A DNA stretch of 55,366 bases from Phycisphaeraceae bacterium. Its GTDB lineage: Bacteria; Planctomycetota; Phycisphaerae; Phycisphaerales; UBA1924. Location of the stretch: the NCBI GenBank assembly GCA_007693725.1, contig REDD01000149.1, positions 1 through 55,366 on the forward strand, in the 5' to 3' direction. Each line of letters begins with the position of its first letter. Positions within the stretch are counted from its first letter, which is position 1. Below are positions 50,082-52,768 of this stretch, piece by piece. The position numbers and the translations under genes are program-made. The notes under the pieces were generated by a model, which ran no database searches, had not been told where the DNA came from, and saw only the letters and a list, made by a program, of their open reading frames with translations.

Positions 50082-50990
50082 ATGGGCAGACGCGTCCTTG
50101 TCGTCGTGAATCGATCCAAGCCGCGCGTCGTCGAGGCCGTGCAGCGTGTTCGCAGCGTGATCGAGAAACACGCTGTCTTCGTTGGCGACTGTGATGCCTT
50201 TGCGGATGGACCGCCGCCCAACCTCTCCGAAACCGATCTCATTCTCGTGCTCGGAGGCGACGGCACACTCCTCGCGCAGGCCCGACGCTTCGTGGCGCAC
50301 GGTCTGCCGCTCATCGGCGTCAACATGGGCTCGCTCGGTTTCCTCGCGGAGTTCGACCTCGACGCCTTCGAGCGACAGGCGCCGTCGCTCCTCGCGGCAC
50401 AGACGCCCCTCGCCACACACGAGCGCATGCTCATCGAGGTCGCCACATACAACAACGGCGCCCCCAGCCCGTCGCACACGGAAGTCGCCCTCAACGATGC
50501 GGTCATCACCGCAGGCCCCCCCTACCGCATGATCGAACTCGCGCTCTCGATCAACGGTGTCGATGCAGCACGGATCAAGGGCGACGGCGTCGTCGTCTCG
50601 ACGCCCGTCGGCTCCACCGGGTACGCCGTCTCCGCGGGCGGTGCCATCGTCTCGCCCGACCTCCAGGCGATGTCCGTCACCCCCATCGCGGCACACTCCC
50701 TCGCCTTCCGACCGCTGGTCGTCCCCGGGGACTCCACCATCGAGATTCGCGTCCTCCGGGCCAACCAGCTTCGCCCCCGCAATGGCCTCCCGAAGGGCAC
50801 CCACGGCACCACCCTCGTCCTCGACGGCCAGCGCCTCCACGATCTCGCAGCGGGAGATCGGGTCGTCCTCAGACGCCACCAGCACCCCGTCCACCTTGTC
50901 AAGAACCCCGAGGGGTCCTACTGGAAGACCCTCGTCCGGAAAATGCACTGGGGTCTGGCGCCCGGCGAACAGGGTGAAAACGCCCGATAA
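50082..50990 (+). CDS. nadK: NAD kinase
   Basis: ATP-NAD kinase, 302 aa, making NADP. The nucleotide motif LVLGGDGTLLAQARRF, then GVNMGSLGFLAEF, and the substrate loop STPVGSTGYAVSAGG are all present. It starts five bases after dxs and is probably cotranscribed, although no ribosome site is visible before the ATG. Confidence 0.95.
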   Translation: MGRRVLVVVNRSKPRVVEAVQRVRSVIEKHAVFVGDCDAFADGPPPNLSETDLILVLGGDGTLLAQARRFVAHGLPLIGVNMGSLGFLAEFDLDAFERQAPSLLAAQTPLATHERMLIEVATYNNGAPSPSHTEVALNDAVITAGPPYRMIELALSINGVDAARIKGDGVVVSTPVGSTGYAVSAGGAIVSPDLQAMSVTPIAAHSLAFRPLVVPGDSTIEIRVLRANQLRPRNGLPKGTHGTTLVLDGQRLHDLAAGDRVVLRRHQHPVHLVKNPEGSYWKTLVRKMHWGLAPGEQGENAR

Positions 50991-51046: not shown

Positions 51047-51075
51047 TTGGCATTTGGCCATCTCCGTGGTAAGTT
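51047..51075 (+). promoter_or_regulatory. Sigma-70-like promoter of the structured RNA
   Basis: TTGGCA at 51047-51052, a 17-base spacer, and TAAGTT at 51070-51075. Start would be near 51082, just before the first hairpin. It is the cleanest -35/-10 pair I found in the window. Confidence 0.6.
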
Positions 51076-51081
51076 TCACTG

Positions 51082-51335
51082 AGTTGGTAGGAGGGAGTCC
51101 ACGGCTTTGTCGTGGCAATCCTCGGAGGGAAGGCCTGCTCTGCAGGCAACACGTCAGGCCCGATTCGTCGGGCCAAGGGAACCGAGCCGGTTGGTCACTG
51201 GTTCGAGAAACATGTCACGAGCAGTCTTCGGACGGCTCGTTAGGGGAATTGGTGGCAGACCACCACCGACTTCGCACGAGAATCTTCTCGTGTGGCAGAA
51301 GCCCGATCCATCGAAAGATGGCTCGGGCTTTTTTT
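51082..51335 (+). ncRNA. Structured RNA of about 250 nt with own promoter and terminator (unknown class)
   Basis: The gap between nadK and serS holds a chain of hairpins instead of a gene. Stems include CCACG/CGTGG (51099-51115), GCCTGC/GCAGGC (51133-51147) and GGCCCGA-TTCG-TCGGGCC (51157-51174). ACGAGC/GCTCGT with an inner C(TTCG)G tetraloop lies at 51217-51240, GGTGG/CCACC at 51251-51264 and CACGAGA/TCTCGTG at 51275-51292. A terminator ends it. CTCGG (51121-51125) can pair with CCGAG (51182-51186) to enclose two of them. I checked for T-box, tmRNA, RNase P, SRP and 6S signatures and saw none. It is either a stand-alone RNA or a serS leader. Confidence 0.65.
51299..51335 (+). terminator. Strong rho-independent terminator before serS
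   Basis: AAGCCCGA (51299-51306) pairs with TCGGGCTT (51323-51330), and CCATC/GATGG (51308-51312/51317-51321) pairs around a GAAA loop, with one internal T/C mismatch. A run of seven T (51329-51335) follows. It lies 26 bases before the serS start, so it either ends the RNA or acts as an attenuator. Confidence 0.9.
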
Positions 51336-51361
51336 CTGCCCCTCCCGCTACCATCCCCGCC

Positions 51362-52768
51362 ATGATCGATCTCAAGGCACTCCGTGAGGATCCGGACCGC
51401 TACCGCGAGGGAGCCCGCAAAAAGCGGATTTCTGTCGATATTGACCGGATTTTGGTCCTCGACGAGCGGCGTCGGGCCATCCAGCACCAGCAGGATGAGA
51501 TCCGGGCCGAGCAGCGTCGGCTGGAGAAAGAGGCAGGCCCCAGAATCGGGGGGCTGATGGGCAAGCTCAAAGCCGCGCAGGGCGAGGAGAAGGCGCGCCT
51601 CGAAACCGAGGTCGCCGAACTGCGGGCCAAGCCGGCAGCGCTCAAGGAGAAAATCCAGGCGCTGGAGGCCGAGGGCGCCGAGGCGAATGCGGCCCTCTCC
51701 GAGGTGCTTCTCACGGTTCCGCAACCCCCCGATTCCGAGGTGCCCGTCGGCGCTTCGGCGGAGGACAACATCGAGGTCCGCCGGTGGAATCCCCCCCACT
51801 TTGATCCCGCCCGCTCGTTTTCCGAGCAGCGCGGCTTCGAAGCCAGGAGCCACGAGGAACTGATCAAGGCGCTTGGGATCGTGGATTTCGAGCGGGGTGT
51901 GAAGGTCGCCGGGTCGCGGTCGTACATGCTGGTGGGCGATGGCATGCGCCTGCACAACGCCGTGCTGCGGTACGCCTTCGACTTCATCACGGAGAAGCAC
52001 GGGTTCACGCCGGTGTCGGTGCCGGTGGTGGTGCGCGAGGAGTGCATGATCGGCACGGGGTTCTTCCCGGCGGGGAAGGACCAGACCTATCTGGTGGATG
52101 AGCAGTCGCGCGGGAGCGCGCACGACCTGTACCTCACGGGGACGGGCGAGGTCGGGCTGATGGCGCGCCACATGGAGGAGATTCTGGACGAGTCGATGCT
52201 GCCGCTGAAGCTGGCGACGGTCAGCCCGTGTTTCCGGCGCGAGGCGGGGGCGGCGGGGCGCGACACGGCGGGGCTGTACCGGATCCACCAGTTCGACAAG
52301 GTGGAGCAGGTGGTCATCTGCCGCGCTGATGAAGCGGAGAGCAAGCAGTGGCACAAGGCGATGATCGGGATCGTCGAGGAGCTGCTGCAATCGCTGGAAC
52401 TGCCCTACCGACTGCTGCAATGCTGCACGGGGGATCTCGGGCCGAAGAACGCGGACATGATCGACATCGAGTGCTGGATGCCCAGCCGCGGCGCGCTGGA
52501 TGGGCAGGGACGGGCGTCGGGCGAGTACGGCGAGACGCACTCGGCGAGCCGGTTGTACGACTTCCAGTGCCGTCGGCTGAACCTCCGGTACAAGGGGGAG
52601 TCGACGGGCGGGAAGCCGGTGTTCTGCCACTCGCTGAACAACACGGTGGCGGCGAGCCCGCGGATCCTGATCCCGATTCTGGAGATGTACCAGCGTGCGG
52701 ACGGGACGGTGGAGGTGCCGCGGGCGCTGCGACCCTATATGGGGGGGCGGGAAGTCATCGGCGGTTGA
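51362..52768 (+). CDS. serS: Seryl-tRNA synthetase
   Basis: Class II aminoacyl-tRNA synthetase, 468 aa. The N-terminal coiled-coil arm covers about 1-110 (QQDEIRAEQRRLEKEAG). The catalytic core follows: motif 2 CFRREAGAAGRDTAGLYRIH and motif 3 ASPRILIPILEMYQRADGTV. It is somewhat longer than the 420-430 aa norm because of a longer arm and linker. ATG at 51362; no ribosome site is visible. The plus strand changes from C-rich to G-rich around the start of this gene. Confidence 0.95.
   Translation: MIDLKALREDPDRYREGARKKRISVDIDRILVLDERRRAIQHQQDEIRAEQRRLEKEAGPRIGGLMGKLKAAQGEEKARLETEVAELRAKPAALKEKIQALEAEGAEANAALSEVLLTVPQPPDSEVPVGASAEDNIEVRRWNPPHFDPARSFSEQRGFEARSHEELIKALGIVDFERGVKVAGSRSYMLVGDGMRLHNAVLRYAFDFITEKHGFTPVSVPVVVREECMIGTGFFPAGKDQTYLVDEQSRGSAHDLYLTGTGEVGLMARHMEEILDESMLPLKLATVSPCFRREAGAAGRDTAGLYRIHQFDKVEQVVICRADEAESKQWHKAMIGIVEELLQSLELPYRLLQCCTGDLGPKNADMIDIECWMPSRGALDGQGRASGEYGETHSASRLYDFQCRRLNLRYKGESTGGKPVFCHSLNNTVAASPRILIPILEMYQRADGTVEVPRALRPYMGGREVIGG

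Follow-up and report, generated by a model that had tools for sequence, protein, structure and literature searches.

What is encoded between the genes for NAD kinase (nadK) and seryl-tRNA synthetase (serS) in an uncultured Phycisphaeraceae bacterium (GCA_007693725.1, contig REDD01000149.1)? For positions 51047-51335 of the window, that is, of the whole 55,366-nt stretch of DNA analysed here, an initial annotation had proposed a compact multi-hairpin RNA, either a new stand-alone RNA or a serS attenuator. The features on which that proposal rested are indeed present, including the -35-like and -10 boxes, the TTCG loops of what we call hairpins H3 and H5, and a terminator (51297-51335) that ends with seven T, 26 bases before the serS ATG at 51362. 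On comparative evidence, the RNA is real and conserved: at least 20 genomes carry it, all from a single bacterial family, and Rfam contains no family to which it belongs. We consider it likely that these RNAs form a new family of stand-alone, trans-acting structured RNAs, folded into hairpins H1-H7, a terminator and a kissing-loop contact; this estimate covers the stand-alone trans-acting family with this fold, and not the step involving CsrA discussed below.

Boundaries and fold of the RNA

A simple consensus scanner run on the window flagged neither the promoter, the TAAGTT of which agrees with the -10 consensus at only 3 of 6 positions, nor the terminator of the RNA. Despite the silence of the scanner, comparison indicates that the promoter is real, because a TAnnnT -10 box precedes the RNA in each of the 20 relatives; the terminator, likewise missed, is rescued by the covariation of its stem. 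On comparative grounds, both boundaries of the RNA are established (Table 1), and it would be transcribed as a discrete molecule, starting at about 51083 from the conserved -10 box and stopping at the conserved intrinsic terminator.

Folding of 51070-51340 yields -130.5 kcal/mol, compared with -97.0 +/- 5 kcal/mol for 200 dinucleotide shuffles, none of which equals the native value (z = -6.7). At least six hairpins had been read from the sequence, and the homologues back at least eight, namely H1-H7 and the terminator. From 5′ to 3′, the common plan is GUUGGUAGGAGnGGAAGC, H1, GGAGGGAAG, H2, ACACGUC, H3 (accompanied in many relatives by an extra hairpin, H3b, at the same position), GGGAA, H4, ACACGUC, H5 (missing from three relatives), GGGGA, H6 (GGUGG/CCACC), H7, GUGUGGCAGAAGC and the terminator. 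An alternative pairing that had been suggested, of CTCGG at 51121 with CCGAG at 51182, is unsupported: the strand 51183-51186 belongs to H4, which covaries in relatives. The loop CCUAGGAAA, with the palindrome CCUAGG inside, caps H3 in locus L006 but H5 in L106 and L111.

Table 1. Positions of the RNA gene, its parts and its neighbours in the window
Feature	Position	Strand	Remarks
nadK (NAD kinase), upstream neighbour	50082..50990	+	Pfam NAD_kinase and NAD_kinase_C
-35-like box TTGGCA	51047..51052	+	from sequence only; 17-nt spacer to -10
-10 box TAAGTT	51070..51075	+	TAnnnT 6-13 nt 5′ of RNA start in 20/20 members
Structured RNA gene	51083..51335	+	about 250 bases; start placed by conservation and -10 box, end at terminator
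5′ linker M0 GUUGGUAGGAGGGAG	51083..51097	+	conserved G(U)UGGUAGGAGnGGAAGC-like start; GGA in 20/20
Hairpin H1 (inner stem 51099-51115)	51091..51123	+	own fold -15.6 vs chimera mean -10.3 kcal/mol
Linker M1 GGAGGGAAG	51124..51132	+	unpaired motif, conserved
Hairpin H2	51133..51147	+	own -9.3 vs chimeras -4.5
Linker S1 ACACGUC	51149..51155	+	near-invariant, flanked by variable hairpins
Hairpin H3, TTCG loop	51157..51174	+	own -20.6 vs chimeras -16.0
Linker M2 AAGGGAA	51175..51181	+	GGGAA conserved
Hairpin H4, loop UGGUC 51192-51196 kissing H6	51183..51205	+	stem z ~12 in anchored scan; kissing-loop tests
Linker S2 AAACAUGUC	51208..51216	+	second motif copy; ACACGUC in most relatives
Hairpin H5, TTCG loop	51217..51240	+	own -12.0 vs chimeras -6.2
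Linker M3 AGGGGAA (GGGGA)	51242..51248	+	conserved in 20/20
Hairpin H6 GGUGG/CCACC	51251..51267	+	both-sided changes in 4/6 pairs; loop GACCA 51258-51262 pairs with H4 loop
Hairpin H7	51273..51295	+	89% of cells paired; both-sided changes in 3/8 pairs
Near-invariant GUGUGGCAGAAGC	51290..51302	+	H7 3′ strand and terminator foot
Intrinsic terminator	51297..51335	+	96% of cells paired; both-sided changes in 10/14 pairs
serS (seryl-tRNA synthetase), downstream neighbour	51362..52768	+	Pfam tRNA-synt_2b and Seryl_tRNA_N

The fold is, by comparison, well established. In a model-guided alignment, which is biased towards its own structure, 93% of cells pair, both-sided changes affect 17 of 28 pairs, and the covariation score is 0.414, versus 0.202 +/- 0.014 for shuffled alignments and at most 0.10 for controls with slid partners; an unguided alignment agrees (0.400 vs 0.202). 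Furthermore, H1-H7 and the terminator each fold better than chimeras joining halves from different species, with a small margin for H6 (-9.1 vs -8.2), the stem of which is nearly constant. Hairpin lengths vary, so that whole-RNA RNAalifold on a MAFFT alignment recovers no more than H7 and the terminator; it was replaced by anchored tests.

The loops of H4 and H6 are complementary over 5-7 bp in all 20 members, through sequences as varied as UGGUC/GACCA in the window, CGGGCGA/UCGCCCG in L092, GGGUCG/CGACCC in L096 and GACCC/GGGUC in L170. This contact, originally spotted by eye, scores 15.2-15.5 with its own partners against 11.4-11.8 with permuted ones, under rule-set loop limits and with L111, a near-duplicate of L106, omitted; in 20,000 permutations, no score was as high. 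It is also the sole long-range contact among the top matches of an anchored scan, the anchors of which include the H4 loop and H6. Comparison thus demonstrates a covarying kissing contact through which the RNA, folded into H1-H7 and the terminator, would acquire a compact core. Between the 5′ end and the linker joining H6 to H7, base pairing is only suggestive, 21 of 5000 permutations scoring as high. Overall, the picture of a folded RNA drawn by the initial annotation is borne out by the folding energy and by 20 homologues with strong stem covariation that extends to a loop-loop contact.

Distribution and descent

Sixteen members came from a DNA search, serS neighbourhoods and sequence patterns. 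A covariance model built on the 3′ domain of the RNA finds members (E <= 3.5e-10) in 20 of the 163 family genomes, representing 19 genera with one copy each; run over 400 genomes of the order, it returns the same 20 and none in the approximately 237 genomes outside the family. In the rest of the phylum, screened with sequence patterns only, the extra matches are unlike the hairpin of this RNA. Because sensitivity is limited by the first-look step of these searches, the absence of the RNA elsewhere should be taken as provisional; within the family, 39 genomes lacking the RNA were searched more leniently, and no member was added. Weaker matches to the model, with E of about 1e-5 to 0.5, were set aside; G068:C78, the best among them, resembles the end of an open reading frame (ORF) followed by a terminator. 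Also discarded were matches in protein-coding stretches to the strict pattern GCACGN{3,25}CGTGTGGCAGA.

Within the genomes searched, the RNA appears restricted to a single subclade within one Phycisphaerales family. In a serS tree, the 17 carriers for which a placement was possible all fall into one group of 23 rows (SH-aLRT 92); of the remaining rows of this group, four lack the RNA and two have a diverged candidate. The simplest reading is one origin followed by vertical descent. The two candidates, in genomes G067 and G111 (loci L105 and L108) inside the carrier clade, are structured stretches of approximately 195-200 nt, located about 190-400 bases 5′ of serS, with an H6-like GGUGGAGAGAGACCACCGA and a terminator, and with neither ACACGUC nor H7; the models give no match, and a diverged or minimal form of the RNA is possible. 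Three genomes inside the carrier group, G005, G013 and G027, have no RNA even by the more lenient search, which could reflect loss, relocation or assembly gaps; G027 retains nadK and serS with a 68-base gap.

Independence from serS

The neighbourhood of the RNA bears directly on whether it is a cis-acting leader of serS, that is, an attenuator or riboswitch that responds to a signal by allowing transcription to continue past the terminator into the gene. Such a role would fit the intrinsic terminator that closes the element and the same-strand serS that begins 19-109 nt past it in 15 of 20 members. However, serS was not found downstream in the other five, all of which keep nadK upstream, and, judging from ORF lists only, the next ORF in L005 and L169 is apparently on the opposite strand. 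Given that relatives without the RNA commonly have nadK and serS side by side, separated by a short gap (in most, 2-190 nt), this arrangement around the RNA is expected by descent; nadK is just upstream in 17 of 20 members, and at least one of the two genes is present in every one. Nor did a covarying antiterminator appear among the top matches of the anchored scan, although near-invariant strands escape such a scan. We therefore regard the RNA as stand-alone and not mainly as a serS attenuator, a role that we rate as very unlikely. Of the two possibilities raised at the outset, the stand-alone class is upheld, whereas attenuation is unsupported as a general function; the distribution of neighbours argues that the RNA is independent of serS, even if a local role could exist in some of the lineages in which the two are adjacent. 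A T-box leader would share with this RNA the position upstream of serS (15 of 20) and the terminator before the gene, but here there is no Rfam match to T-box, the RNA has its own putative promoter, and in 5 of 20 members no serS was found downstream.

Relationship to known RNA families

The earlier impression that known families do not match is confirmed: searches against Rfam 15 (4227 models) with permissive filters returned no match to the RNA at E values up to 5, nor, up to E = 1, to the RNA of ten further members. The single listed match among relatives, to sR53 (0.032), lies at the edge of L001, beyond the RNA itself. A divergent housekeeping RNA (RNase P, SRP RNA, 6S RNA or tmRNA) might be suggested by the compact, terminated, single-copy form and by a part of M1 that resembles the RNase P motif GAGGAAAGUCC by eye. 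Yet separate genes for RNase P RNA (on C281, 222 bits), SRP RNA (on C117, 54 bits) and 6S RNA (G000:C8:495-673, 51 bits) lie elsewhere in this genome, so that the RNA is not a degenerate copy of any of these; RF00010, RF00169 and RF00013, respectively, do not match it, and in the window ARAGORN found no tmRNA and no tRNA was detected. This reading is largely refuted and retains next to no probability. 6S RNA forms a single long hairpin that has a bubble in its middle; our RNA is likewise stand-alone, single-copy and of similar length, but consists of a row of separate hairpins in a genome that has its own 6S. As a separate observation, the 6S RNA of this genome exceeds the Rfam cut-off and those of the tested relatives score below it, indicating that the Rfam model covers 6S of this family poorly.

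A protein-coding function was rejected, there being no reading frame common to the members, the lengths of which differ by non-multiples of three; so was an origin from a phage or plasmid, as neither kind of record gave a match. An open-literature search surfaced no matching description. Like the orphan structured RNA candidates obtained by comparative genomics (e.g., PMC2864571), this is a covarying intergenic RNA, but one that matches none of the 4227 Rfam 15 models and is found in one Phycisphaerales family among the genomes searched.

Possible functions

Most probably, the RNA acts in trans, its linkers being the parts that contact a protein or a second RNA. The working surfaces would be GUGUGGCAGAAGC and the repeated unpaired linkers, GGGAA-type before H2, H4 and H6 and ACACGUC behind H2 and H4. 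The GGGAA-type linkers are mostly unpaired in prediction (mean 0.69), and ACACGUC is less open (0.54).

The most specific guess, weakly supported and in our estimate rather unlikely, is titration of CsrA: the RNA would be a functional analogue of CsrB or RsmZ in which the GGA linkers between hairpins bind CsrA dimers and so draw them off mRNAs. This genome encodes CsrA, as do 22 of 23 genomes tested, mostly in two copies; linker GGA is retained in 20 of 20 members, and GGA, ANGGA and GGGA all exceed dinucleotide expectation. RsmZ binds its protein not only via GGAs in stem-loops but also via a single-stranded GGA between them (PMC4005645). However, ANGGA in a hairpin loop is the high-affinity, best-bound site (PMC4005645), whereas here no conserved GGA was seen in hairpin loops, the conserved copies lie in linkers, and the loops of H4 and H6 are engaged in the kissing contact. 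Moreover, the enrichment is modest (7-13 GGA per RNA; 9.6 vs 7.9 expected), ACACGUC and GUGUGGC are left unexplained, and CsrA occurs in carriers and non-carriers alike. Since the linker GGA of RsmZ is bindable but the loop ANGGA is bound best, we keep CsrA as a guess and do not file the RNA with the Csr/Rsm RNAs (CsrB, CsrC, RsmX/Y/Z). With these it shares the stand-alone, intrinsically terminated hairpin chain, the GGA in linkers and a genome with CsrA; it differs in its GGA outside loops, its longer conserved non-GGA motifs and its conserved kissing loop, and no Rfam family of the group matches it. Alternatively, the repeated, exposed ACACGUC might pair with GACGUGU-type sites in several mRNAs, consistent with two near-invariant, partly accessible copies between variable hairpins; but GGGAA and the kissing core would then be unexplained and ACACGUC is the less open of the two linker types, which makes such base-pairing quite unlikely. 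Finally, it is possible, if doubtful, that the kissing-loop core and the repeated GGGAA-hairpin-ACACGUC modules belong to a bacterial RNA, of the RNP or ligand-binding type, that is new in category and has a role unlike that of any known bacterial RNA; one planctomycete lineage would then have gained it a single time and retained it in nearly all its members.

To our knowledge, little is known of regulatory RNAs in Planctomycetota. The family described here is comparatively well supported, by 20 genomes, by its stems and by one tertiary contact, and is ready for expression, probing and testing; its tight link to one clade and its repeated modules around a kissing core offer starting points for function. 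With regard to these modules, the unit GGGAA-hairpin-ACACG(U)C seemingly occurs three times in series in the H2/H4/H6 region of 51083-51335, the third copy ending in the CACG of H7, which looks as if the RNA had grown by unit duplication.
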